The notes under the pieces: model-generated
What the model was told of the DNA's origin: nothing
Databases searched by the model: none
What the model saw: only the letters and a program-made list of their open reading frames with translations
In this document: positions 955 to 22,196 of the stretch, piece by piece
Position numbering within the stretch: the first letter of the stretch is position 1
Layout: each line of letters opens with the position of its first letter
Translations under genes and position numbers: made by a program
Source: Pedobacter sp.
GTDB lineage: Bacteria > Bacteroidota > Bacteroidia > Sphingobacteriales > Sphingobacteriaceae
DNA: 33,217 nucleotides
Direction of reading: 5' to 3'
Assembly (NCBI GenBank): GCA_014377775.1
Contig: JACMOW010000247.1
Coordinates: forward strand, 1 to 33,217

Positions 955-1773
955 TTATACCACCTGCTTAACAATTTTATCAATTTTTAATGTAATTTCT
1001 GGTCTTGGTTTTGCTCTTTTAAGTTCGCTTTTATCATTTGTATAGTTTTTTATGCCAAAATTACTATTTGCTATTTTACTGTTTATCGTATCGAATTTTG
1101 ATAAGAAATAAATAAATTGATTTTTTACCTTAAAGGCAGGATAATTTGAGGGAGTTGCAATGTTATCTTTAAAGCATTCAATAAAATCAAATTCACTTAT
1201 TCGGGTGGCAAATAACTCTTTTAAGATGCAAAATTTATGAAAATCTGATAGTATTTTTATCGGTACTAAGGGGTGCACATCCAAGTTATAAACAAAATCC
1301 TCTCTGTTTCGATGAATTACACCTTTATCTTTTATAACATCTTCGAGGGCGTACACCCTGCGGATACCTTTAAAAAAGGGTGCCAAATAATACTCTTCTA
1401 AATCTTTCAGGTGCTTGCCATCATCACTTATCTCTTTGTAATGACCTTTGTTAAAATGATAAATATCATTTTCTTTCTCTTTAATGAAGTAGTCAGTTGC
1501 TAATTCGATAATGTGGCTAATTACATCGTTAGTAAAAACCTCAGGGCAATTACTATTTATCCATGCTGATCCTAAACTAGATCCTTTCTTTAATTCTTTT
1601 TTTTGCTCAAATATCACCTCTGTAATATGTGTACTCAATCCCTTTGGATGCTGTTTCCCTATCGAAGTTTCATTTTTAGCAAAATTATCAGCTTGCTGCT
1701 TCGCATCATTAGCACATTTTATAATTAAATGCTGTATCGCTAATCTCGTTTCCTCGCTTAATAATTCACTCAT
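955..1773 (-). CDS. Unknown protein coupled to the integrase gene
   Basis: A 272-residue protein I do not recognise. It is lysine- and glutamate-rich, mainly helical by appearance, with no signal peptide or membrane segment. Residues 1-40 form a likely amphipathic helix, and the centre is rich in Asp/Glu/Tyr (HLKDLEEYYLAPFFKG). Its ATG overlaps the integrase stop by one base (TAATG), so it is probably made by re-initiation after integrase translation. Genes in this position in Bacteroidota elements are often accessory cargo or recombination helpers, but nothing in the sequence decides this. The length and uninterrupted frame make the gene itself secure. Confidence 0.8.
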   Translation of the reverse strand: MSELLSEETRLAIQHLIIKCANDAKQQADNFAKNETSIGKQHPKGLSTHITEVIFEQKKELKKGSSLGSAWINSNCPEVFTNDVISHIIELATDYFIKEKENDIYHFNKGHYKEISDDGKHLKDLEEYYLAPFFKGIRRVYALEDVIKDKGVIHRNREDFVYNLDVHPLVPIKILSDFHKFCILKELFATRISEFDFIECFKDNIATPSNYPAFKVKNQFIYFLSKFDTINSKIANSNFGIKNYTNDKSELKRAKPRPEITLKIDKIVKQVV

Positions 1774-3116
1774 TACCCTACAATTTTAAGATTAGAAACT
1801 TCGCCCCATGCTTTAGTAACGGATAGTTTTAACGCCTTTTCAGTTATTTTTACATACCTTTTAAAAGAGTTGTATGTTTCCCACCCACCGGCCAACATGA
1901 CTTCTTCAGCACTCATTCCTTTCTCTAAAGACAGTGAGGCAAACGTTTTTCTTGCGGTGTGAAAATGCACTAATTCGTACTTGGGATAAACAACTTCTAC
2001 ACGTTTTGCACCATAATAGCGAACTATTTCAATTGGTGTATTAATACCAACTAACTTGCATAAATCTTTTAAGCATCTATTTAATTCTTGATTGGTAACC
2101 ATTGGAAGTATTTTTTTATCATTCCTATATTTATCCAATATTGATGCTGAAATACTATTTAATGGAATAGATAATTTTTGCTTTGTTTTCTTAACAACAA
2201 ATTTGATTTCATTGTTAATAATGTGTTCACGGCTTAATAGTGCTGTATCGCTGTATCTCATGCCACTTGATGCGCTAAAAACAAAGATGTCACGCACTCT
2301 ATCTAAACGCTTATTGTTGCTTAGATCGTGATTAATAAGGGCATCAAGTTCGTGCTGTTCTAAGGCTATAACTTCTAATTTCTGTTTTGAAATTGAATAG
2401 TCTTTGTAGCTGTCATTTACTTTTATTCCTTGTTTACGTGCATACCCTAAAAAAGTTTTTAAGGTGCTTAATGTTTTAGCTATGGTAGTATTGTTAAGCA
2501 TCGGACTTGTAACGTCTGCTTTATCTGTTTTAGTTCTATTGATTAAAAAAGTATTTAGTTTGTTGAAAAATTCATAATCAACTGTTTCAAATGTTACTTT
2601 GTGGCGTGTAATTTTCTGATAGGCTTCTAAATGTCTTTTTACTGATTTATATACAGATAGGCTGCCTTTTGCCCTTGTTATTTCATGATCTTTAATGTAG
2701 GTATCCATAAAATCAAACAAGAAGTTATTAGGCTCTTCTTTTTTCGTTTTAGATTTATTGATGTTTTTTAATTCATCTATAACCATTTGTGAAGAAAATT
2801 GAATTTTATTAGCAACAAACTTATTTTCAATACTAATTATATTGCTTTCAAAATCTTTAATTGTTTTGTTGATTTCTTCTATCTCGGTTTCTGTTAAAAA
2901 TTCACTCGGAGAAAGCCCTGGTAATAGTACTTTAACTTCTTTTTTTGGAATATAAAAAGCGTTCTTATTTTCTGTATTCCAATACTCTTTATAAATGTTT
3001 CTATCTATAGAATAGAACAACCTAGCACGATGTACTGAATAAGTTAAATAAATAGGGGTTTTACCACTCTTAAGGGTTTTTTGTGTTCGTAACACAAAGT
3101 TTAATGTTCCTGTCAT
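1773..3116 (-). CDS. Tyrosine recombinase / site-specific integrase
   Basis: A 447-residue phage-type integrase that cuts and joins the element's attachment sites. Domains in order: an N-terminal arm-type DNA-binding domain (about 1-110), a SAM-like core-binding domain (about 130-235), and the catalytic domain (about 250-430). Visible catalytic residues are R287 in SGMRYSD, H386 and R389 in HFHTARKTFA, W412 in GGWETY (Trp in place of the second His, common in this family) and the nucleophile Y421 in RYVKI. A lysine near 310-315 in the KKTKQKL hairpin fits the catalytic beta-hairpin Lys. It reads away from the attachment site at 3293-3316, which lies 177 bases upstream of its start. Its promoter region carries a 12-bp tandem repeat. 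Confidence 0.95.
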   Translation of the reverse strand: MTGTLNFVLRTQKTLKSGKTPIYLTYSVHRARLFYSIDRNIYKEYWNTENKNAFYIPKKEVKVLLPGLSPSEFLTETEIEEINKTIKDFESNIISIENKFVANKIQFSSQMVIDELKNINKSKTKKEEPNNFLFDFMDTYIKDHEITRAKGSLSVYKSVKRHLEAYQKITRHKVTFETVDYEFFNKLNTFLINRTKTDKADVTSPMLNNTTIAKTLSTLKTFLGYARKQGIKVNDSYKDYSISKQKLEVIALEQHELDALINHDLSNNKRLDRVRDIFVFSASSGMRYSDTALLSREHIINNEIKFVVKKTKQKLSIPLNSISASILDKYRNDKKILPMVTNQELNRCLKDLCKLVGINTPIEIVRYYGAKRVEVVYPKYELVHFHTARKTFASLSLEKGMSAEEVMLAGGWETYNSFKRYVKITEKALKLSVTKAWGEVSNLKIVG

Positions 3117-11595: not shown

Positions 11596-12723
11596 ATGGA
11601 AGAAAATAAGGAAGAATCGGTACGCAGGTTTCTGAACCTAGTCAAAAAATCTAGAAGAGGAAAGCTGAAGATCTACATTGGCATGAGCCCTGGCGTAGGA
11701 AAGACTTATCGCATGTTGCAGGAGGCGCATGCCCTATTGCGTAATGGAGTAGATGTTTGTGTTGGCTATGTAGAAACTCATAAAAGAGCGGAAACTGAGG
11801 CACTTGTAGCCGGCCTTCCAATAATACCAAGGAAAAACATTTTCTATCGCGGCAAATCTTTGGAGGAAATGGATGTTCAGGCGGTGATCAACCGTTACCC
11901 CGAAATTGTGATTGTTGATGAGCTGGCCCACACCAATGCCGAGGGTAGCAAGAATGCTAAGCGCTGGCAGGATGTGTATGATATTTTGGAGGCCGGAATA
12001 AGTGTTGTTTCGGCGGTAAATATACAGCATCTGGAAAGCATTAATGAAGACGTACAGCAGATTACCGGTATTACTATTACAGAACGTATCCCAGATAAAA
12101 TCCTCGAGATTGCAGACGAAATTGTAAATATCGACCTTACCGCAGACGAGCTGGTTACAAGGTTAAAAGAGGGCAAGATTTACGACAAAAGCAAGATCGA
12201 GCAGGCGCTGGGGAATTTTTTCCAATCAGATAAGATTTTACAGCTACGAGAGCTTGCACTAAAAGAAGTGGTGCATCAGGTAGAGCGAAAGATCCATATC
12301 GAGATCCCAAAATCCATCAAGCTTCGGCCAGAGAAATTTTTAGCCTGTATTTCATCAAATGCCGAAACCGCAGGAATCGTAATTAGAAAGACAGCGAGGT
12401 TGGCTTCTTATTACCACTCGCCTTGGATCGTGCTTTATGTGCAGAGTGATAGCGAAAGTTTGGACAGGATCAAATTGGATAAACAACGACACCTTATCAA
12501 CCACTTCAAGCTTGCCACAGAACTTGGGGCAGAGGTAGTGAAGGTGAAGAGTAACAACATTACCGAGGCCATTATGGATATGGCAAGCGAAAGAGAGATC
12601 ACTACAATCTGTATCGGAAAACCCCATCTAACTATTTTTCAGGTGATCCTTCGAACGGCGGTATTTAACCAACTCCTGCGCAACTTGGCAACCAAGGAGA
12701 TCGATATGGTAATTCTTTCATAA
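11596..12723 (+). CDS. Stand-alone KdpD N-terminal sensor domain with Usp domain
   Basis: A 375-residue protein corresponding only to the cytoplasmic front part of KdpD (E. coli KdpD is 894 residues). The KdpD domain carries Walker A GMSPGVGKT (29-37) and the Walker B-like IVIVDELAHTN (D108, E109). The universal-stress-protein-like domain spans about 245-375 (FLACISSNAETAGIVIRKTA). There are no membrane spans, no histidine-kinase core and no phospho-acceptor His. It is a natural split, since the frame ends cleanly and the kinase is a separate gene 114 bases downstream. Inference: it senses K+/ATP status and acts on the neighbouring kinase. The serine-rich c-di-AMP signature known from Staphylococcus KdpD is not clearly present. 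Confidence 0.92.
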   Translation: MEENKEESVRRFLNLVKKSRRGKLKIYIGMSPGVGKTYRMLQEAHALLRNGVDVCVGYVETHKRAETEALVAGLPIIPRKNIFYRGKSLEEMDVQAVINRYPEIVIVDELAHTNAEGSKNAKRWQDVYDILEAGISVVSAVNIQHLESINEDVQQITGITITERIPDKILEIADEIVNIDLTADELVTRLKEGKIYDKSKIEQALGNFFQSDKILQLRELALKEVVHQVERKIHIEIPKSIKLRPEKFLACISSNAETAGIVIRKTARLASYYHSPWIVLYVQSDSESLDRIKLDKQRHLINHFKLATELGAEVVKVKSNNITEAIMDMASEREITTICIGKPHLTIFQVILRTAVFNQLLRNLATKEIDMVILS

Positions 12724-12837
12724 GTAATACAATAGTTATAAGTTTTAAAAAAAAACATCAAACTTTCATGATTTACTACATTCAAAAGAATCAATTAAAC
12801 ATCATAGCCTCATTAAAGTTGGAAATAACCTAAAACC

Positions 12838-14586
12838 ATGAAAATCAAAACCAAACTTCACGCAGGATTCGGATTTCTGTTTGTCATTGTACTTGCCTTT
12901 GGGCTTATCGCCCTTTTCTTTTTGAACCAGATCTCGACCAAAGCAAAGCTGATTCTGAAGGATAATTATAAATCAATTAATTATGTGGCGCAGATACGGA
13001 ATGTAATGGATGAGGAGGGCTATCCGTTTTCAAGGCTAAATGCTCAAGTTTTTGAACGAAACCTTGAATTGGAAAAGGAGAATATTACAGAGCCTGGAGA
13101 AAGGAATGCTGTTGAACGCATTATTGCAGGATATGAACAGTTGAAAACTGCCAGTTCCGCTGTTGCTATCAAAAGCGTTGAAAGAAATATTAGGTTTGCC
13201 ATCAGGAATATTGAGGAGGTGAATATGAAAGCGATCCATGACAAGAATGAACTGGCCAACCGGGAGTACTCGCGAGCAGGGATCTATATCTCCGTTGCCG
13301 CATCTTTCTGCTTCATTATACTGTTTACTTTTATTGTGAATTTTCCGGGCTTTGTAGCCAACCCACTTGCCGAATTCAGCCAGGCAATTCGCCAAGTGGG
13401 TAATGGAAACTACCTACAACGCCTGCACTTTAATAATAACGATGAGTTCTCTGAGCTTGCTACCTCTTTTAATTCGATGGCCAAAAAGCTAAACGATTGG
13501 GAGAACAGCAACCTGTCTAAACTCAAATCAGAGAAATCAAGGATCGAGGCCATCATCGCCCAGATGCAGGATGCCATTATTGGGGTGGACGAAAAGGGAG
13601 ATGTTCTGTTCTTAAACCAATTAGCTGCTAAACTTATTGGTGTCGACGAGAAGACCACCCTCAGTCAAAATGTAGAGGATTTGATGAAAAGGAACGAACT
13701 ACTGAAAAATATCATCCAACCTCAGGATGATAACATTATATTAAAAATTTATGCCGATGAACGAGAATCCTTTTTCCAGCTAGAAAGTAGGGAAATTGTA
13801 GTACCTAATATTCAAGTCGAAGAAGATCAGCCCATCATATCATCGAGCAGGTCGGTAGGTAACGTATACGTATTGAAAAATGTAACCCAGTTTAAGGAGC
13901 TAGACCAAGCGAAGACCAATTTTATCGCTACGGTTTCCCATGAACTGAAAACACCGTTATCTTCTATTAAAATGAGCCTGCAGCTATTAAGGGATATTAG
14001 GGTGGGTGAGATGAACGGGGAACAATTGGAGCTCTTAGCACATATACAGGATGATAGCGATAGGCTATTGAAGATTACAAGTGAACTTTTAGATCTTTCA
14101 CAAGTAGAAAGTGGCAATCTCAAGCTCAGCTTTGCACTCACAAAGCCACAGGAAATCGTTCAGTTTGCGGTTGATGCGGTAAAGTTCCAGGCCGAGCAAA
14201 AGTCTATTCAATTGGAGCTAAAATGTGAAGACAACCTTCCAGAAGTGAACGTAGATATCCAGAAAACGGCATGGGTACTGGTAAATTTTCTTTCCAATGC
14301 GCTGCGCTATAGTTCAGAGAAGTCGAAGGTAGTGATCGAAGTGGTTGAAAGGAATGGTTTTGTCGAATTTTCGGTTAGGGATTTTGGAAAAGGAATTGAA
14401 GAGAAATATCAGAAGAGACTTTTTGACCGCTATTTCCAAGTGCCTACCGATGGACAGAATAAATCGGGCTCTGGGCTTGGGCTTGCGATATCAAAGGATT
14501 TCATAGAGGCCGAGAGCGGAAAGATTTGGGTAGAGAGTGCGATTGGCGAAGGGAGTAGATTCTGCTTTACCTTGCCGAAGATTTAA
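12838..14586 (+). CDS. Membrane sensor histidine kinase partnered with the split KdpD
   Basis: A 582-residue kinase. Order: membrane helix (about 10-31), a small extracytoplasmic helical region of about 115 residues, second membrane helix (about 148-172), HAMP (about 173-225), a PAS-like domain (about 235-355), HisKA with phospho-acceptor H368 in VSHELKTPLSSIKM, then HATPase_c with N box NFLSNALRYS, G1 DFGKGI and G2 GSGLGLAIS. All catalytic boxes are intact. It probably supplies the kinase activity that KdpD carries in other bacteria, and phosphorylates the sigma-54 regulator at 4176-5507. The 114-base gap before it may hold its own promoter; I see no clear box. No terminator is evident after it. 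Confidence 0.93.
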   Translation: MKIKTKLHAGFGFLFVIVLAFGLIALFFLNQISTKAKLILKDNYKSINYVAQIRNVMDEEGYPFSRLNAQVFERNLELEKENITEPGERNAVERIIAGYEQLKTASSAVAIKSVERNIRFAIRNIEEVNMKAIHDKNELANREYSRAGIYISVAASFCFIILFTFIVNFPGFVANPLAEFSQAIRQVGNGNYLQRLHFNNNDEFSELATSFNSMAKKLNDWENSNLSKLKSEKSRIEAIIAQMQDAIIGVDEKGDVLFLNQLAAKLIGVDEKTTLSQNVEDLMKRNELLKNIIQPQDDNIILKIYADERESFFQLESREIVVPNIQVEEDQPIISSSRSVGNVYVLKNVTQFKELDQAKTNFIATVSHELKTPLSSIKMSLQLLRDIRVGEMNGEQLELLAHIQDDSDRLLKITSELLDLSQVESGNLKLSFALTKPQEIVQFAVDAVKFQAEQKSIQLELKCEDNLPEVNVDIQKTAWVLVNFLSNALRYSSEKSKVVIEVVERNGFVEFSVRDFGKGIEEKYQKRLFDRYFQVPTDGQNKSGSGLGLAISKDFIEAESGKIWVESAIGEGSRFCFTLPKI

Positions 14587-15320: not shown

Positions 15321-15340
15321 AAGCCCGAAAGGGCTTTTTT
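15321..15340 (+). terminator. Rho-independent terminator
   Basis: AAGCCC (15321-15326), GAAA tetraloop, GGGCTT (15331-15336) and a T run to 15340, starting 20 bases after the stop of the secreted protein gene. The A run before the stem may allow some action in the other direction. Confidence 0.9.
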
Positions 15341-15369: not shown

Positions 15370-15867
15370 ATGGAAACTAAGAAAAAAGAAATATTCGACA
15401 CCGTTGCGCAGCGATTACAAATTGAAGGGTTTAAGGTAATTAGCAGAGACGAAACTCGTCCGTGGGGTGGTTTTTTTGTAATAGACGAAGCACAAGCGCA
15501 ACAGTTTGCTGATACTTATTTTGATGGTTTGGATGTAGATAGCTTGAAAATTGGAGGTAAACTAAGTCCAAAGGTATTAATTGTTGCACCCAACACCCGT
15601 CTTTCTTGGCAGTATCATCATCGCCGTGCCGAAATATGGCAAATAATTAGCGGAACAGTTGGCATTAAAACCAGTGCAACCGATGAAGAAGGCGAAGTAA
15701 AATCATATCAACCAACAAACCAGATTAAATTACAGCAAGGTGAGCGTCACCGCTTAATCGGATTAGACGATTGGGGCGTAGTGGCTGAAATTTGGCAACA
15801 TACCGATGCCGAAAATCCATCAGACGAGAGCGATATTGTTCGCGTACAAGACGATTTTGGTAGGTAA
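15370..15867 (+). CDS. Cupin-fold protein related to type II mannose-6-phosphate isomerase
   Basis: A 165-residue protein with a single cupin barrel. The first cupin motif includes PNTRLSWQYHHRRAEIW (H83, H84, E88), followed by QIISGTVGI; the second holds LQQGERHRLIG (H127). These residues would bind one metal ion. The RLSWQYHHRRAEIW stretch resembles the C-terminal isomerase domain of ManC/type II phosphomannose isomerases, which are much longer, so this is a domain-only relative. It may isomerise a sugar phosphate, but substrate is not determinable. It lies 48 bases before the lipid-modification operon and may or may not be co-transcribed with it. Confidence 0.8.
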   Translation: METKKKEIFDTVAQRLQIEGFKVISRDETRPWGGFFVIDEAQAQQFADTYFDGLDVDSLKIGGKLSPKVLIVAPNTRLSWQYHHRRAEIWQIISGTVGIKTSATDEEGEVKSYQPTNQIKLQQGERHRLIGLDDWGVVAEIWQHTDAENPSDESDIVRVQDDFGR

Positions 15868-15915: not shown

Positions 15916-16644
15916 ATGATTATTCTATTCTTTTTTTTAGCACATTGGTTTCTATCGCTTTTTAGTCAAACCTTTTTTCTACATCGTTATTCATCACATA
16001 AAATGTTTAAGATGGAGAAATTTTGGGAACGATTTTTCTATCTTATTTTGTTGGTTTCTCAAGGATCATCTTTTTTAAATCCTCGTGCCTATGCCATTTT
16101 ACACCGTATGCACCATGCCTATAGCGATACGGAAAAGGACCCACATTCGCCACATTTCTTTAAAGATGTGTTTGGGATGATGTTGGCTACAAAAAATATG
16201 TATCTCAACTACTTACGCTATAAAATCGAGCCCGAACCTGCATTTAGAGGTAATTATCCGGAGTGGCATTTGATTGATAAAATTGGAGATTCTTGGGTTT
16301 GGAGGTTGAGTTGCGCACTATTCTATATAGGGTTTTATGTTGCCTTCGCCGAATATTGGTGGATGTTTATTTTATTACCAATCCATTTTTTAATGGGGCC
16401 TTTACATGGTGCAATTGTAAATTGGTGTGGACATAAATACGGTTATTCAAATCACGATAACGACGATCATAGTAAAAATTCATTGCCATGGGATTTCTTA
16501 ATGATGGGTGAATTATTTCAAAATAACCACCACAAAAAGCCAAATAGTCCTAAATTTTCTTCCCATTGGTGGGAGTTCGATCCTACCTATCCAGTGATGA
16601 AAGTTTTACATTGGATGCGAATTATTAGAATTAGAAAGGTTTAA
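15916..16644 (+). CDS. Membrane acyl (stearoyl-CoA-type) fatty acid desaturase
   Basis: A 242-residue integral membrane di-iron desaturase, short compared with typical bacterial delta-9 enzymes. Histidine boxes are visible: HRYSSH (23-28), HRMHH (63-67) and QNNHH (202-206), plus the extra metal-ligand region [12 protein letters not shown] (169-180). In the last box a Gln stands where many relatives have His. It would use O2 and electrons to place a cis double bond in a fatty acyl chain. Inference: as first gene of the operon it supplies the unsaturated chain that the downstream methyltransferases modify. The next gene begins 32 bases later. Confidence 0.88.
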
Positions 16645-16645
16645 T

Positions 16646-16658
16646 CTTCCATCTTCCA
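16646..16658. repeat. Short dispersed repeat (inverted copy at 23675-23687)
   Basis: CTTCCATCTTCCA here is the exact reverse complement of TGGAAGATGGAAG at 23675-23687. Both copies lie in intergenic gaps and are built on a TGGAAGA heptamer. This looks like remnants of a simple repeat family. Confidence 0.5.
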
Positions 16659-16676
16659 ATTTCCCTCTAATCTTAA

Positions 16677-17006
16677 ATGATCACTACATTAAAAATTGTT
16701 TTCTCTGCTCTTTTAATCTGGGTAACCTATGTTGTCATTAGCACCAGCTTTAAAAGTTCTTTATTTACGGAATGGGACTCTTTAGCCGCAATTCCTTGGA
16801 TGCGTGCTACACTGTGGGATTTCTATGCCAATATTTTTATCATCACCTTGTGGATGTTTTATAAAGAAAAATCTATCTTTCTTAAAGTCATTTGGTTAAT
16901 TTTATTCGTATGTTTAGGTAGCATTGCCACTTGTGCTTATGTGTTGATTAAGCTATTCAAACTAAAGGCTAGTGAAGGTGTTGAAGAACTTGTAAGTAAA
17001 AAATGA
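16677..17006 (+). CDS. DUF1475-family small membrane protein
   Basis: A 109-residue protein with three hydrophobic spans (about 5-22, 45-62 and 70-92). The central PWMRATLWDFYANIF is what I recognise as typical of the DUF1475 family. Function is unknown. Its stop overlaps the start of the DUF1295 gene by 4 bases (ATGA), so the two are translationally coupled. Placement between a desaturase and lipid-modifying enzymes suggests a membrane role in the same process, perhaps as a scaffold or partner; this is inference. Confidence 0.75.
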   Translation: MITTLKIVFSALLIWVTYVVISTSFKSSLFTEWDSLAAIPWMRATLWDFYANIFIITLWMFYKEKSIFLKVIWLILFVCLGSIATCAYVLIKLFKLKASEGVEELVSKK

Positions 17007-17812
17007 ACTCAAACTCGCTCATATTTATTGCGCTTATATCTCTCCTTGCCTGTTGCATCATTATGTTTTTGGTTTGGCTATGGGCGAAAAAAATTAAAAA
17101 TGCTGGAATAGTAGATGTGTTTTGGGCATTAAATTTCCCTGTAATTACCCTCATTACTTATTTTTTATCAGATGGCTTTGGGGAGCGGAAAATATTGATC
17201 TGTGGGATGTTTTTAATCGCCGAACTACGATTGGGCCTTCATCTTTGGCAACGGGTAATTGGCCATATCCATGAAGAAGAAGGTCGATATGTGCAGTTGC
17301 GAAAAGAATGGGGTGAAAATGCCAATCGCAATTTTTTCTTTTTCTTCCAATTTCAGGCCATCTCGAATGTGCTTTTGGCTATTCCTTTTTTTATCATTAC
17401 TGCAAATGCTACAGAAAAACTATCCATCTTAGAGTATATGGCTGTTGGTGTTTGGGTAATTTCATTTTTTGGTGAAGCCATAGCGGACAAGCAATTGGCG
17501 ATTTTTAAGAAGAATTCTCAAAACAAAGGAAAAGTTTGCGATACGGGTTTATGGAGCTACAGTAGGCACCCTAATTATTTTTTCGAATGGCTTGCTTGGA
17601 TGAGCTATTTCATCTTCGCTTTAGCTTCGCCTTGGGGCGTTTTGGCCATCATCAGCCCCGCTATTATTTTATATTTATTATTAAAAGTTACAGGAGTGCC
17701 CAATAATGAAGAGCAAAATTTAAGAAGCAAGCCCGTAGCATATAAAAAATATCAAGAAACAATTAGTGCGTTTTTCCCATTGGGAAAAAAGAATGGAAGA
17801 GGTTCCATTTAA
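17003..17812 (+). CDS. DUF1295-family membrane protein (steroid 5-alpha-reductase-like fold)
   Basis: A 269-residue protein with about six membrane spans. The C-terminal GLWSYSRHPNYFFEW (182-196) is the signature shared by DUF1295, isoprenylcysteine methyltransferases and steroid 5-alpha reductases, which bind NADPH or SAM at this site. It could therefore reduce a double bond or transfer a methyl group in a lipid chain. It follows DUF1475 with a 4-base overlap and precedes the first CFA-like methyltransferase by 22 bases. DUF1295 proteins are known companions of CFA/DUF1365 gene clusters. Confidence 0.85.
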   Translation: MNSNSLIFIALISLLACCIIMFLVWLWAKKIKNAGIVDVFWALNFPVITLITYFLSDGFGERKILICGMFLIAELRLGLHLWQRVIGHIHEEEGRYVQLRKEWGENANRNFFFFFQFQAISNVLLAIPFFIITANATEKLSILEYMAVGVWVISFFGEAIADKQLAIFKKNSQNKGKVCDTGLWSYSRHPNYFFEWLAWMSYFIFALASPWGVLAIISPAIILYLLLKVTGVPNNEEQNLRSKPVAYKKYQETISAFFPLGKKNGRGSI

Positions 17813-17834
17813 CCCTTTTATATCTTACATCAAC

Positions 17835-18869
17835 ATGTGGTACGATAAACTTATAGAAAACGATAAATTACCCGACTCAGTTTTACGCGTAGGGATTAGG
17901 AAATTATTAAAGCAACGATTAATCGACGAAACGTTGGGCGATGAAGAATTGCAACAGCAGAAACTTATAGATTTGGTGGATGAACTTAAATCATCGCCAA
18001 TTGCGATAAATACTGTTGATGCCAACGAACAACATTATGAATTACCCACCAAGTTTTTTCAGTATTGCTTAGGTAAAAACCTGAAATACAGCAGTGGATA
18101 CTGGAAGCCTGGGGTTACTGCTATCGATACTGCTGAAGATGATATGTTGGCACTTACCTGTAAGCGTGCAGATTTACAAAGTGGACAGAATGTATTGGAA
18201 TTAGGCTGCGGATGGGGTTCGTTATCGTTATATATGTCGGCTAAGTTTCCTGAAAGTCGTTATACAGTAGTGTCTAATTCTGCTACGCAGAAAATCTTTA
18301 TAGACGAAACGGCTAAGCAACGAGGGATACAGAATTTAACTGTTTTAACTGCTGATATGAATACTTTTACGATTGCTGACACCTTTGATCGGGTAGTTTC
18401 TGTAGAAATGTTCGAGCACATGCGAAATTATAAATTGCTTTTGGCGAAAGTTGCTTCATTTTTAAAACCAGCGGGAAAATTGTTTGTTCATATTTTTACC
18501 CATAAAACTTTGGCTTATAAATATGAGATAATAGACGAGAGCGATTGGATGAGCAAGTATTTTTTTACTGGAGGAATTATGCCGTCGAACCATCTATTTT
18601 TTTATTTTAATGATGATCTAAAAATTAGCAGACATTGGGTGGTAAATGGAACCAATTATGGCAAAACTTCTGAAGCATGGTTAAGCAATATGGATATGCA
18701 CAAGCAAGAAATTATGCCAATTTTGGAAAGTACTTATGGCAAGGATCAAGCGGTAAAATGGTGGGTGTATTGGCGCTTATTTTATATGGCTTGCGCCGAA
18801 TTGTTCAATTACAATAGGGGGAATGAGTGGATGGTGTGCCATTATTTGTTTGAGAAATGCAAAAGGTAG
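17835..18869 (+). CDS. SAM-dependent methyltransferase, CFA / coclaurine N-methyltransferase-like
   Basis: About 344 residues from the ATG at 17835, the first one after the upstream stop that matches the usual MWYDKLIE-type N-terminus. Earlier ATGs at 17766 and 17793 overlap the previous gene and are possible. The SAM-binding motif is LELGCGWGSL (121-130). It has the CFA fold but not a full cyclopropane-synthase active site. By eye alignment to E. coli Cfa, the position of C139 holds Ser (S87 in YSSGYW), the Glu/His pair is kept (E194, H195 in EMFEHM), the second His is kept (H219 in FVHIF), and the Tyr is not. The substrate is uncertain: a lipid chain is likely from context, a small amine is possible from family. 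Its end overlaps the FAD gene by 13 bases. Confidence 0.85.
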   Translation: MWYDKLIENDKLPDSVLRVGIRKLLKQRLIDETLGDEELQQQKLIDLVDELKSSPIAINTVDANEQHYELPTKFFQYCLGKNLKYSSGYWKPGVTAIDTAEDDMLALTCKRADLQSGQNVLELGCGWGSLSLYMSAKFPESRYTVVSNSATQKIFIDETAKQRGIQNLTVLTADMNTFTIADTFDRVVSVEMFEHMRNYKLLLAKVASFLKPAGKLFVHIFTHKTLAYKYEIIDESDWMSKYFFTGGIMPSNHLFFYFNDDLKISRHWVVNGTNYGKTSEAWLSNMDMHKQEIMPILESTYGKDQAVKWWVYWRLFYMACAELFNYNRGNEWMVCHYLFEKCKR

Positions 18870-20101
18870 CAATAATTGGAACGGGAATAGCCGGAATGGG
18901 TTGTGCACATTTTCTTCATAAAAAGTACGATATTACCCTTTTCGAAGAGCTCGATTATATAGGTGGACATACCAATACGGTAGCCATTGAAGAGGAGGGG
19001 AAGCTGGTTTATATTGATACTGGTTTTATGGTGTTCAATTACGCAACCTATCCGAATCTTTGTAAATTATTTGCCGAAATTGAGGCACCCGTAAAGAAAA
19101 CGGATATGTCGTTTAGCGTGCAGTACTTGCCAAGCGGATTGGAATATTCGGGATCAAGCTTAAAGCATTTATTTGCGCAAAAGCGGAATGTGTTTAATCC
19201 TGCTTTCTTAAAAATGTTGATGCAGATTAATCGTTTTAACAAGGAGAGCATAGCCATTTTAGATGACCCTAAATATGTGGATTACTCGCTCGGTCGGTAT
19301 GTAAAAGAATTTGGTTACAATGATAATATGGTTTGGAAATACTTAATTCCGATGAGCTCTGCCGTATGGTCTACACCAATGGATCAAATTTTAGACTTTC
19401 CAGCCGTTTCTTTGATTAGATTTTTTAAAAATCACGGCTTTTTAGGTTTAGATACACAGCACCAGTGGTACACATTACACAAAGGTAGTCAGGCTTATCG
19501 TGAAAAATTGATTGCTCCATTTCATCACCAAATTCGAGTAAATACAAAGATCGTTTCGGTAGAGCGTTTAGAAAATGGGAAGGTATTGGTGGTTACTGCT
19601 TATGGAGAGCAAATGGAGTTTGACAAGGTGATTATGGCAAGCCATGCCAATCAAAGCTATCACATCGTTCAACGGAAAACGAAAGATGAGGAACGTCTTT
19701 TGTCCAAATTTAAGTATCAAGCTAATATGGCAGTTCTGCATACCGATAAGGGGCAGATGCCGAAAAAGAAATTGGCCTGGAGCAGTTGGAATTATAGAGT
19801 AGAAAAACAGGGAGATGTTTTAGTGCCTAGTACTATTTATTGGATGAATAAATTGCAAGGTGTATCGGAAGAAGTAGATTATTTCGTGTCTATTAATCCT
19901 TCAGCTACGCTGGATAAAAGCAAGATTATAAAAAAGATTGCGTATGAACATCCTTTATTTGATGTGCCGGCCATGCAAGCGCAAGCGGAATTATATAAAC
20001 TAAATGAAAGTGGCCCAATTTATTATTGTGGAAGCTATTTTAAATACGGATTTCATGAGGATGCATATAAAAGTGCTGTAGATTTATGCGAGAAGTTTTA
20101 A
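18857..20101 (+). CDS. FAD-dependent oxidoreductase (amine-oxidase/desaturase-like)
   Basis: A 414-residue flavoprotein. The dinucleotide-binding motif GTGIAG (8-13) is followed by ITLFEELDYIGGHTNTV, the second FAD contact, and the C-terminal FAD motif is GPIYYCGSYFKYGFHEDAYK. It lacks membrane spans. It belongs to the NAD/FAD oxidoreductase group that is regularly found beside DUF1365 and CFA-like genes. In Rhodobacter and Rhodopseudomonas a gene cluster of this kind is tied to furan fatty acid synthesis; whether this protein is the equivalent desaturase (UfaD) cannot be settled here. It overlaps both neighbours (13 bases before, 16 bases after), a strong sign of coupled translation. Confidence 0.9.
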   Translation: MQKVAIIGTGIAGMGCAHFLHKKYDITLFEELDYIGGHTNTVAIEEEGKLVYIDTGFMVFNYATYPNLCKLFAEIEAPVKKTDMSFSVQYLPSGLEYSGSSLKHLFAQKRNVFNPAFLKMLMQINRFNKESIAILDDPKYVDYSLGRYVKEFGYNDNMVWKYLIPMSSAVWSTPMDQILDFPAVSLIRFFKNHGFLGLDTQHQWYTLHKGSQAYREKLIAPFHHQIRVNTKIVSVERLENGKVLVVTAYGEQMEFDKVIMASHANQSYHIVQRKTKDEERLLSKFKYQANMAVLHTDKGQMPKKKLAWSSWNYRVEKQGDVLVPSTIYWMNKLQGVSEEVDYFVSINPSATLDKSKIIKKIAYEHPLFDVPAMQAQAELYKLNESGPIYYCGSYFKYGFHEDAYKSAVDLCEKF

Positions 20102-20901
20102 AATCATCAATTTATATGGCTAAAGTTATGCATCATAGGTTATCGCCTAAGAAGCATTCCTTTTGGTATAGTATTTATTTATTCTATATCGATATAGATG
20201 AAATCGATAACTTGAGTAAGAAATTAAGATGGTTTAGTCGTAATAGATTTAATCTTTTTAACTTTAGAGATAAAGATCATTTACAATTGCCGAGAGAAAA
20301 TCCCGACCAAAGTAAAAATATTAAACAGCAAATAAGTGATTATTTAAAATCGAATACCGTTGAAATAGGCAATGGAAAAATTATGCTTTTAACAAACCTG
20401 AGCGTATTCGGTTATAATTTCAATCCAGTTTCTTTTTACTTTTGTTTCGACGAGAATAATAATCCACTATGTGCAGTTTCAGAAATTAGCAACACCTACC
20501 GGGAAATGAAGTTGTTCTTTTTTAGCAAAGATGAATTGGAAGGAAATAGATTTAGGCAGCGAGTTAAAAAACTTTTCTACGTGTCACCATTTATTGATTT
20601 GGATGCTTTTTTCGATTTTAATCTAGCTATTCCGGCAGAAAAATTGAATATTAAGATTGATGATTATGATGCTGACGGTAAGCGATTTTTCTTAAGTACC
20701 TTAACTGGAGAAAGAAAACCATTAACTAATAAGATTATGTTGTGGTATTTCTTTTCTTTACCTTTAATTCCTTTAAGGGTGATGGGACTGATCCACTGGC
20801 AGGCATTTAAATTATGGATAAAAAAGATCGGTTATCACCCAAAATCTGCAAACCAACATTTACAAAAAAGCGTACATAAGCCCTATCAACCCAAAGCATA
20901 A
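20086..20901 (+). CDS. DUF1365-family protein
   Basis: A 271-residue protein. The DUF1365 family is recognisable from the N-terminal SSIYMAKVMHHRLSPKKHSF, the central FGYNFNPVSFYFCFD, and EISNTYREMKLFF. Function is not firmly known. A hydrophobic segment near 213-230 (LWYFFSLPLIPLRVMGLIHW) may touch the membrane. It begins inside the end of the FAD gene (16-base overlap) and ends 5 bases before the CFA-family gene. The FAD oxidoreductase-DUF1365-CFA trio is a recurring cluster in many bacteria and is linked to modified unsaturated fatty acids and oxidative-stress regulons. Confidence 0.88.
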   Translation: MREVLKSSIYMAKVMHHRLSPKKHSFWYSIYLFYIDIDEIDNLSKKLRWFSRNRFNLFNFRDKDHLQLPRENPDQSKNIKQQISDYLKSNTVEIGNGKIMLLTNLSVFGYNFNPVSFYFCFDENNNPLCAVSEISNTYREMKLFFFSKDELEGNRFRQRVKKLFYVSPFIDLDAFFDFNLAIPAEKLNIKIDDYDADGKRFFLSTLTGERKPLTNKIMLWYFFSLPLIPLRVMGLIHWQAFKLWIKKIGYHPKSANQHLQKSVHKPYQPKA

Positions 20902-20906
20902 TTAAA

Positions 20907-22148
20907 ATGTCTTCTTCACTCTCTATAACGAAAAATAGATCAGGTTTTTATGAAAATGCAGTTGTTTCTGCATTGTGCAAAATGAATAGGGGATTTCTGA
21001 ATCTCAGTCTGCCCAACGGTGAGAATTTAGAAATTGGAGAAAAAAATTCGACGATTAAGGCCAACTTAGTCATAAAAAATCATCAATTTTTTAAGCGTGT
21101 AGTTTTGTATGGCGACATTGGTTTTGGTGAAGCTTATGTGGATGGTTTATGGGAAACGGATAACATTACCAATATCATTAAATGGATCATTTTAAACATT
21201 GAAAATGCACCATCTGTTTCGGGGAATAAGGTTAAAAATATCGGCTTAAACCTGTTTAAATGGTTCAATAGAATGTATCACAATGGGAGATCGAACAGCA
21301 TTATAGGCGCTCAAAAAAATATAGCCGAGCATTATGATTTGAATAATGATTTTTTCGCTACGTTTTTGGATCCTTCTATGACCTATTCGGCAGCCTATTT
21401 TAAAACATCAGATTTATCGTTGGCAGCCGCACAAGAAGAAAAGTACAACCGTTTATGTGAGCAATTACAATTAAAAGCGACCGATCATGTGCTTGAAATT
21501 GGAAGTGGTTGGGGGGCAAATGCCATTTTTATGGCCAAAAATTATGGCTGTAAAGTAACTTCCGTTACCATTTCTAAAGAACAACAAAAACTAGCCCAGC
21601 AACGGGTTGAGGCTGCGGGCTTATCTAATAAAGTTGATATCATCATTAAAGATTATCGAGACATTGAGGGGGAATTTGACAAAATTGTTTCGATTGAAAT
21701 GTTGGAAGCGGTAGGTCATAACTTTTATGAAACCTATTTTGCAAAATGTGCTGAAGTTTTAAAACCCAATGGGATTTTAGCTTTTCAGGTAATTACTAGT
21801 CCAGATAGTCGATATGATCACCTCAGAAAAGGGGTAGATTGGATACAAAAACATATTTTTCCTGGATCTTTATTGCCTTCTGTTGCACAATTAAATAAGG
21901 CCATTAATCATACCAGTGATCTTACCATGGTAGATTTGAAAGATTTAGGCTTAGATTATGCAAAAACATTAAAGCTGTGGTTTGAAGACTTTAACCAAAA
22001 GGTAAATGAGGTGAAAGCTTTAGGCTTTGATGATCGCTTTATTCGAAAATGGAATTATTATCTAAACTATTGCGAAGCAGCATTTGAGATGCGGAATATT
22101 AATGTGATGCAAATGGTGTATACCAGGCCGAATAATGTGGAACGGTAA
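20907..22148 (+). CDS. CFA-family fatty acyl-phospholipid methyltransferase with altered active site
   Basis: A 413-residue protein of the cyclopropane-fatty-acyl-phospholipid synthase family (E. coli Cfa is 382). It has an N-terminal lipid-binding domain (about 1-120), the SAM motif VLEIGSGWGAN (195-205), and VTISKEQQKLAQQRV. Aligned by eye to E. coli Cfa, three of the five residues that hold the catalytic bicarbonate differ: C139 is A162, H266 is Q294 and Y317 is F359; the Glu (E267) and Ile (I296) are kept. Inference: methyl transfer to a double bond may remain, while ring closure may be lost, so the product could be a methyl-branched unsaturated chain. It is the last gene of the operon and a terminator follows. 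Confidence 0.88.
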   Translation: MSSSLSITKNRSGFYENAVVSALCKMNRGFLNLSLPNGENLEIGEKNSTIKANLVIKNHQFFKRVVLYGDIGFGEAYVDGLWETDNITNIIKWIILNIENAPSVSGNKVKNIGLNLFKWFNRMYHNGRSNSIIGAQKNIAEHYDLNNDFFATFLDPSMTYSAAYFKTSDLSLAAAQEEKYNRLCEQLQLKATDHVLEIGSGWGANAIFMAKNYGCKVTSVTISKEQQKLAQQRVEAAGLSNKVDIIIKDYRDIEGEFDKIVSIEMLEAVGHNFYETYFAKCAEVLKPNGILAFQVITSPDSRYDHLRKGVDWIQKHIFPGSLLPSVAQLNKAINHTSDLTMVDLKDLGLDYAKTLKLWFEDFNQKVNEVKALGFDDRFIRKWNYYLNYCEAAFEMRNINVMQMVYTRPNNVER

Positions 22149-22163
22149 AAAGGTGTAATATGG

Positions 22164-22193
22164 AAAATGGTTCGTATTGCCACGAACCATTTT
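22164..22193. terminator. Bidirectional terminator between convergent genes
   Basis: AAAATGGTTCGT (22164-22175) pairs perfectly with ACGAACCATTTT (22182-22193) around a 6-base loop. It has A and T runs on the outer sides, so it can end both the rightward lipid operon and the leftward helicase gene. Confidence 0.9.
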
Positions 22194-22196
22194 TGT

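Follow-up and report, generated by a model that had tools for sequence, protein, structure and literature searches.

Positions 1 to 33,217 of a Pedobacter sp. contig (Bacteroidota; NCBI GenBank assembly GCA_014377775.1, contig JACMOW010000247.1), a stretch of 33,217 nucleotides referred to here as the window, carry a seven-gene operon at 15916-22148 whose enzymes, judged by homology, probably suffice to convert saturated or monounsaturated acyl chains of phospholipids into dimethyl-furan fatty acids. Furan fatty acids are antioxidant lipids. The part of PMC7380195 drawn on here describes how their methylation, second desaturation, ring closure and ring methylation were worked out in Rhodobacter sphaeroides and Rhodopseudomonas palustris: UfaM (RSP2144, RPA2569) methylates phospholipid cis-vaccenate chains, the FAD-type protein UfaD (RSP1091, RPA2571) forms a conjugated diene, the DUF1365 protein UfaO (RSP1090, RPA2570) uses O2 as the oxygen donor in closing the furan ring, and FufM (RPA0924) attaches a second methyl group to the ring; FufM was active both when plasmid-encoded in R. 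sphaeroides and as a cell-free protein. The window operon holds homologues of the same four enzymes and adds a membrane desaturase of its own and a DUF1475 protein, in a Bacteroidota host; whereas R. palustris keeps its genes at two loci, all of them stand here in one operon.

Homologues of four furan fatty acid enzymes

Seven rightward open reading frames (ORFs) were confirmed in this interval at the place and on the strand given for them in an earlier reading made from the letters alone (the sequence-only reading). Every one of them has its Pfam matches above the curated cut-offs, and the recomputed gaps (32, -4, 22, -13, -16 and 5 bases, with gene 4 starting at ATG 17835) agree with the spacings described in that reading. 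As references we used R. palustris orthologues from strains XCP, 2.1.18 and JSC-3b, assigned by type and arrangement, the Rhodopseudomonas genomes having been reached through a light-harvesting peptide. DUF1365 is present as one copy per genome in six of six Rhodopseudomonas genomes searched. In the three R. palustris strains, the genes for UfaD, UfaO and UfaM are adjacent and in the same order as in the window, and the FufM-type gene lies at a separate locus, where it adjoins a DUF1295 gene.

Gene 4 aligns with one protein per Rhodopseudomonas genome (6/6) at 42-45% identity over ~330 residues (41-45% to the R. palustris FufM orthologues), with only 22-28% for the other cyclopropane fatty acid (CFA)-type proteins of those genomes and 24-28% for UfaM. 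The solved structures nearest to it are coclaurine and pavine N-methyltransferases (chain 6gkv, 2.1e-80, vs 6.8e-28 for E. coli Cfa), and a comparison made with FufM of R. palustris XCP finds these structures too, again with coclaurine N-methyltransferase (3.5e-61) far ahead of Cfa (4.5e-27). On these matches we ruled out that gene 4 is a CFA synthase, its nearest relatives being coclaurine-N-methyltransferase-like proteins and FufM. An identity of 37.9% between FufM and Arabidopsis AT4G33110 is given in the part of PMC10940516 used here. In our tree, gene 4, R. palustris FufM and the proteobacterial operon copies form one group beside the plant enzyme, although the branch that separates this group from the plant enzyme has a support of only 84/85 and carries a long-branch warning. 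Gene 4 keeps all 74 columns that are invariant in 16 other sequences, and 83 of 95 when only non-Bacteroidota rows are considered. In sequence comparison gene 4 therefore corresponds to the ring methylase of the dimethyl branch of the ufa/fuf pathway, and we regard it as a FufM homologue and predicted furan-ring methylase.

For gene 7, identity does not decide the placement, because E. coli Cfa (41.9% over 339 residues) and R. palustris UfaM (37.7-39.2% over 398) match it equally well. We therefore compared six Cfa positions, Cys139, Glu239, His240, His266, Ile268 and Tyr317 (E. coli numbering), of which Cys139 presumably has a role in Cfa. Three of these residues, Glu239, His266 and Tyr317, hold the catalytic bicarbonate in E. 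coli Cfa, as described in the part of PMC11387697 used here. All 20 operon-linked proteins, the three R. palustris UfaM included, read S or A, E, A, Q, I and Y. The Cfa set is made up of E. coli Cfa, two further Rhodopseudomonas CFAs and the 21 top-scoring CFA matches found in Bacteroidota genomes that lack DUF1365; its residues are C, E, H, either H or Q, either I or V, and Y. Positions 139 and 240 split the two sets completely. Gene 7 has A, A and Q at positions 139, 240 and 266, and E, Q and Y at the bicarbonate-ligand positions; it shares the family and the S-adenosylmethionine (SAM) domain with Cfa but has the His266 ligand, Cys139 and His240 replaced. A CFA-only tree of 44 rows split the UfaM type from the Cfa type at 100/99, with gene 7 grouping with R. 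palustris UfaM, and the same split was obtained at 100/100 with 40 rows, that is, without the Rhodococcus and Acinetobacter sequences and the two further Rhodopseudomonas CFAs. A constraint that placed the Bacteroidota operon proteins with Cfa was rejected by the approximately unbiased (AU) test (p-AU 0.008). Residues, tree and AU test all set gene 7 apart from Cfa as a methyltransferase of the UfaM type, and we conclude that it is a UfaM homologue predicted to act on a double bond, and probably not a cyclopropane synthase. Plain cyclopropane acids are an unlikely product of the operon, because the active-site residues at 139, 240 and 266 are replaced.

Aligned over 410 residues, the FAD protein encoded by gene 5 and two UfaD orthologues of R. 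palustris share 34.9-35.6% identity, and the window protein keeps 52/52 columns invariant in 14 other sequences (58/67 against non-Bacteroidota rows only). Its gene adjoins the DUF1365 gene, as expected of a UfaD flavoprotein next to UfaO, and the protein is a UfaD homologue, predicted to act as an FAD-dependent desaturase of the methylated acyl chain. The DUF1365 protein (gene 6) shares 28.7-30.8% identity with UfaO orthologues of three R. palustris strains, and it retains every one of the 14 columns invariant in 15 other sequences and 17 of the 20 that are invariant in nine non-Bacteroidota sequences; the invariant columns include just one histidine. Pfam, identity and invariant columns agree in pointing to UfaO, and gene 6 is predicted to encode an O2-dependent ring-forming enzyme. 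AlphaFold models calculated without relatives had mean pLDDT (predicted local distance difference test) values of 36.9 for the DUF1365 and 50.7 for the DUF1295 protein, too low for a fold search, and a scan of viral contigs found no DUF1365 relatives.

The FabA route to double bonds serves many proteobacteria. A search for FabA in 25 genomes (the window's own, which is 88% complete, and 24 relatives) stayed below the cut-off in all 25, with a best score of 37.7 bits vs 238, the FabA model exceeding its cut-off in 2 of 14 control genomes. These bacteria are probably devoid of the FabA route, and since no match passed the cut-off, the first double bond probably comes from the desaturase in the operon. 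The desaturase carries the His boxes HX4H, HX2HH and QX2HH, the first His of box 3 being replaced by Gln, in 13/13 aligned Bacteroidota proteins. The suggestion in the sequence-only reading that this enzyme could supply the double bond, its assignment of the operon to membrane-lipid modification and its comparison with UfaM, UfaD and UfaO are all supported by homology.

According to the proposed scheme, the desaturase would introduce the first double bond, after which four steps transferred by homology from R. sphaeroides and R. palustris would follow. The UfaM protein would place a methyl group from SAM onto the double bond and leave a trans double bond next to the methyl branch, a second, conjugated double bond would come from the UfaD flavoprotein, the UfaO protein would insert an O2-derived oxygen atom and close the furan ring, and the FufM protein would methylate this ring. 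Chain length and furan position would depend on the desaturase: an omega-7 16:1 chain would give 7-(3,4-dimethyl-5-pentylfuran-2-yl)heptanoate, with a fatty acid methyl ester (FAME) at m/z 308 as calculated from the published 9D5 value, and an 18:1 delta-11 chain would give 9D5 itself (FAME m/z 336). In analogy to R. sphaeroides, the benefit for the cell is likely to be membrane protection against singlet oxygen.

To see how consistently these genes occur together, we examined an evenly drawn set of 296 Bacteroidota genomes that contains the window's own. DUF1365 was found in nine of them, spanning seven genera, and FufM (at least 56% identity) and the UfaM type (at least 54%) were present in exactly the same nine, with FufM- and UfaM-type matches of only 25-39% in the remaining genomes. 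The Fisher p value for co-occurrence of the three is 2.4e-17, and further Fisher values are 6e-14 and 9e-10; all of them ignore kinship. The desaturase, at E 1e-30, is present in 9/9 operon-carrying genomes and DUF1475 in eight of the nine. Of the 24 other genomes of the genus, 7 have DUF1365, one of them in a copy that is broken or cut at a contig edge, so the operon appears to be gained and lost within the genus. Through DUF1365 we collected 17 unbroken Bacteroidota loci (the window, L012-L019 and L142-L149), in all of which UfaD- and FufM-type genes cluster with the UfaO-type gene. UfaM is part of 16 loci (not L013), DUF1295 of 16 (not L143; the matches in L144, L148 and L149 are weak, at 31-34%, and those of L148 and L149 lie on the opposite strand), the desaturase of 13, DUF1475 of 12 and the cupin gene described below of nine. 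This clustering is more than chance. An eighteenth locus, L020, was not counted: it begins at a contig edge, and its DUF1365 gene is split over two ORFs. This copy (L020:1-2638, from a same-genus genome that is 78% complete) looks broken or misassembled. In two loci an alpha/beta hydrolase gene of the BD-FAE family stands between the FufM and UfaD genes (L019:8132-9265, L143:12213-13397), and annotation places further alpha/beta hydrolases close to four of the clusters described below (Mesorhizobium, Rhizobium, Cupriavidus and Rhodococcus).

Other products weighed

The closest competitor to a dimethyl-furan route is one that stops at mono-methyl furans, with the FufM-like protein methylating a different lipid or small molecule, in the manner of the related plant enzymes, which methylate alkaloid nitrogen. 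The substrate is not readable from the sequence of gene 4, and coclaurine and pavine N-methyltransferases are the structures nearest to it; however, this kinship, seen at the sequence level, is common to R. palustris FufM. Furthermore, relatives of gene 4 with at least 56% identity are confined to the genomes with DUF1365 and are present in all of these (9/9, 0/287), they stand directly before UfaD in 11 of the 17 loci, and in the tree gene 4 and Rhodopseudomonas FufM form a group that leaves out the plant enzyme, at the limited support given above. We consider such a split between the two methyltransferases unlikely. An earlier halt, at methyl-branched monoenes, conjugated dienes or a non-furan oxidised product serving membrane fluidity, would fit with UfaO being the most diverged of the four enzymes and with its cofactors and mechanism being called unresolved in the part of PMC7380195 drawn on here. 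Against it stand the complete set of invariant columns in the window DUF1365 protein and the presence of a FufM-type gene, which is hard to explain if no furan substrate is made, and we judge this outcome distinctly unlikely. Ordinary cyclopropane synthesis by two CFA synthases among unrelated neighbours could appeal to the identity of gene 7 to E. coli Cfa, which is as high as that to UfaM, and to the Pfam CMAS matches of both methyltransferases. Yet the replaced residues in gene 7, its place in the tree, the AU test and the non-CFA relatives of gene 4 make this highly improbable, and two CFA synthases were ruled out: gene 4 is of the FufM type and gene 7 of the UfaM type. The sequence-only reading had taken both methyltransferases for CFA-family enzymes, which needs correction. 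In plasmid annotation, operon proteins are called 'cyclopropane-fatty-acyl-phospholipid synthase family'.

A number of observations weigh against the dimethyl-furan route. The furan products are predicted here from genes, and the reference proteins are all R. palustris orthologues from strains other than the tested CGA009. Window UfaO is only ~30% identical to that of R. palustris, and whole-length identity puts gene 7 no nearer to UfaM than to E. coli Cfa. As for the active-site residues, Gln266 on its own is not diagnostic, being found in 10 of the best 21 non-operon CFAs as well, and position 139 is occupied by A in two of the operon-linked proteins (those of the window and L012) and by S in the other 18. 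Of the 287 genomes lacking the operon, 24 encode the desaturase as well, and its gene lies apart from the cluster in three genomes (G138, G159 and G195). No UfaM-type gene was found in the 18 kb of L013, where tblastn matched the FufM gene only, and G132 carries a DUF1475-DUF1295 pair without DUF1365. Finally, a Pfam scan of 21 window proteins did not reveal a sigma-70 domain, although a regulator could lie elsewhere.

We nevertheless favour the dimethyl-furan route. The sequence-only reading had proposed a comparison of the FAD protein and both methyltransferases with the Ufa enzymes, and this comparison has identified a UfaD-like flavoprotein, a UfaM-type gene 7 and a FufM-type gene 4. Since one methyltransferase is of the UfaM type and the other of the FufM type, dimethyl furans are predicted. 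Furan formation, one of several products considered in the sequence-only reading, has thus emerged as the best of them, whereas the assignment of UfaO to DUF1365 and the dimethyl product were not part of that reading.

Accessory genes, relatives and regulators

The DUF1295 protein is 34-35% identical to the R. palustris protein encoded beside FufM, and DUF1475 is found in 1/287 genomes other than the operon carriers. DUF1475 and DUF1295 look like a separate module, because the pair stands apart in G138, where desaturase and pair occupy two other places of the genome, and in G132, which rules out that DUF1475 is strictly tied to the furan genes. A stand-alone two-gene module of DUF1475 and DUF1295 is seen at L189:5808-7097 and L190:5398-6520, once without DUF1365 in the genome. 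In L017, a 138-residue ORF in the DUF1475 position is not recognisable as DUF1475. The two proteins are probably an accessory pair. FufM works from a plasmid and as cell-free protein (PMC7380195, in the part drawn on here), so methylation itself would not require DUF1295, provided that no DUF1295 protein came from the host or the extract. A deletion of RPA0923, which to judge from the loci compared is probably the DUF1295 gene beside fufM, is listed in PMC7380195, but no result for it was found in the main text. Only tentatively do we extend the proposal to a self-sufficient dimethyl-furan operon that starts from saturated chains with its own desaturase, since FabA is missing, and in which the DUF1475-DUF1295 pair serves the furan pathway, for example by reducing or protecting an intermediate or by passing electrons to UfaO or the desaturase.

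Outside Bacteroidota we looked at five proteobacterial plasmids picked from protein matches, one each from Mesorhizobium, Rhizobium, Shinella, Acinetobacter and Cupriavidus. Genes for FAD, DUF1365, DUF1295 and FufM-type proteins are found together on all five of these alpha-, beta- and gammaproteobacterial plasmids, and a CFA-type gene is present in four of the clusters; in the Shinella stretch, tblastn found no CFA-type gene beyond the FufM gene. A Rhodococcus plasmid carries FAD, DUF1365, CFA and DUF1295 genes and a further unannotated CFA-like stretch, and a close FufM match was not found on it. Acinetobacter plasmid NZ_CP053948.1 (L030) matches the window in gene content except for DUF1475, with an acyl-CoA desaturase, FAD, DUF1365, CFA-type, DUF1295 and FufM-type genes in a row. 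It differs in gene order and in its larger desaturase (29% identity to the window's), has no annotated DUF1475, and has lipocalin and two-component genes alongside; in the tree, its UfaM-type protein sits on a long branch as the sister of those from Bacteroidota (98/90). This plasmid rules out that the combination with a desaturase is special to Bacteroidota, a point on which the sequence-only reading was not right.

Control of the pathway by the singlet-oxygen sigma-E/ChrR system is known in R. sphaeroides and is not defining for the pathway. No sigma-70/ChrR genes were seen among the window proteins scanned. The three alphaproteobacterial plasmid clusters adjoin sigma-70/ChrR genes, and the Acinetobacter and Cupriavidus clusters lie near photolyase-family genes. 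In L142, the two genes directly upstream of the desaturase (L142:2216-3806) encode a 188-aa protein with sigma-70 region 2 and another of 343 aa that has no Pfam match; they are possibly the cluster's own regulator pair. MerR regulators with B12-binding domains are often light sensors. One gene for such a regulator stands divergently beside the furan cluster in L148 (5585-6532) and another in L149 (4865-5848); both loci come from Bacteroidota of a class other than the window's. L149 also has glutathione peroxidase and DUF1295 genes, reminiscent of the singlet-oxygen set of Chlamydomonas. In this alga, CFA1, CFA2, DUF1365 and DUF1295 are listed as requiring SAK1 for singlet-oxygen induction, and another table names CFA2 as coclaurine N-methyltransferase CPLD27 (PMC4067076, in the part used here). 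CFA-type, DUF1365 and DUF1295 genes are common to the SAK1 set and the window, but the host is a eukaryote and that part of PMC4067076 names no furan product.

Locus layout and wider meaning

The transcription unit probably begins one gene before the desaturase, at a cupin gene, because the latter precedes the desaturase in 9/9 same-genus loci with an intact upstream side (the window, L012, L014-L018, L145 and L147); BLAST found no match to it in eight loci outside the genus. Two terminator-like hairpins bracket the resulting eight genes, although such hairpins are scarcely commoner in the window than in shuffles (7 vs 5.0 +/- 2.4). For gene 4, a longer ORF is possible from GTG 17766, but relatives align from residue 24 of that ORF and ATG 17835 is therefore the likely start. 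Rfam and tRNA scans of the window gave no matches, nor did one Bacteroidota promoter pattern.

Table 1. Predicted features of the furan fatty acid locus, in window coordinates.
Feature	Position	Strand	Basis
Terminator-like hairpin ahead of the unit	15321..15336	+	Consensus match only
Cupin (MannoseP_isomer-type), probable first gene in this genus	15370..15867	+	Pfam 7.1e-10
Gene 1, membrane acyl desaturase	15916..16644	+	Pfam FA_desaturase 5.8e-15; His boxes
Gene 2, DUF1475 protein, 109 aa	16677..17006	+	Pfam 8.9e-18, second half of profile only
Gene 3, DUF1295 protein	17003..17812	+	Pfam 3.2e-63; steroid 5-alpha-reductase, weaker, 6.5e-09
Gene 4, FufM homologue, SAM methyltransferase	17835..18869	+	Pfam CMAS 8e-35; identity to R. 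palustris FufM
Gene 5, UfaD homologue, FAD-dependent desaturase	18857..20101	+	Pfam Amino_oxidase 7.3e-17; identity to UfaD
Gene 6, UfaO homologue, DUF1365	20086..20901	+	Pfam DUF1365 1.7e-74; identity to UfaO
Gene 7, UfaM homologue, SAM methyltransferase	20907..22148	+	Pfam CMAS 1.2e-90; active-site residues, tree
Terminator-like hairpin, 13 pairs, after the last gene	22163..22194	+	Consensus match only

Elsewhere in the window, a phage-integrase-type recombinase gene (447 aa) lies near the left end at 955-3116, with a 272-aa gene without identification 3' of it. At 11596-14586, behind kdpA, kdpB, kdpC and a porin-type gene, the KdpD sensor domain is encoded on its own, in a 375-aa protein in which Pfam finds nothing else, and the next gene codes for a HAMP/PAS histidine kinase (582 aa), perhaps a split KdpD. 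KdpB is 78.5-79.5% identical to plasmid copies from Phocaeicola, Bacteroides and Parabacteroides, with 64.6% for the next best among the 8 best of at least 5000 records, in agreement with a Bacteroidota host.

The literature searched (listed titles and abstract beginnings, few subscription journals) yielded no report of furan fatty acid synthesis in Bacteroidota. While the core chemistry is already known and a desaturase-containing set also exists on the Acinetobacter plasmid, what appears new is the phylum, as far as searched, the packaging in one operon with a desaturase where no FabA was found, and the DUF1475-DUF1295 pair. The residue signature at Cfa positions 139, 240 and 266 (S/A, A, Q vs C, H, H/Q) separates the UfaM type in all sequences compared, and DUF1295, which is found in algae too, and DUF1475 become proteins to test in furan lipid metabolism. 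If the proposed route is correct, a pathway known biochemically from two purple bacteria would extend to Bacteroidota, and a single six-kilobase cassette would make dimethyl furan acids from common acyl chains and offer a route to antioxidant lipids.

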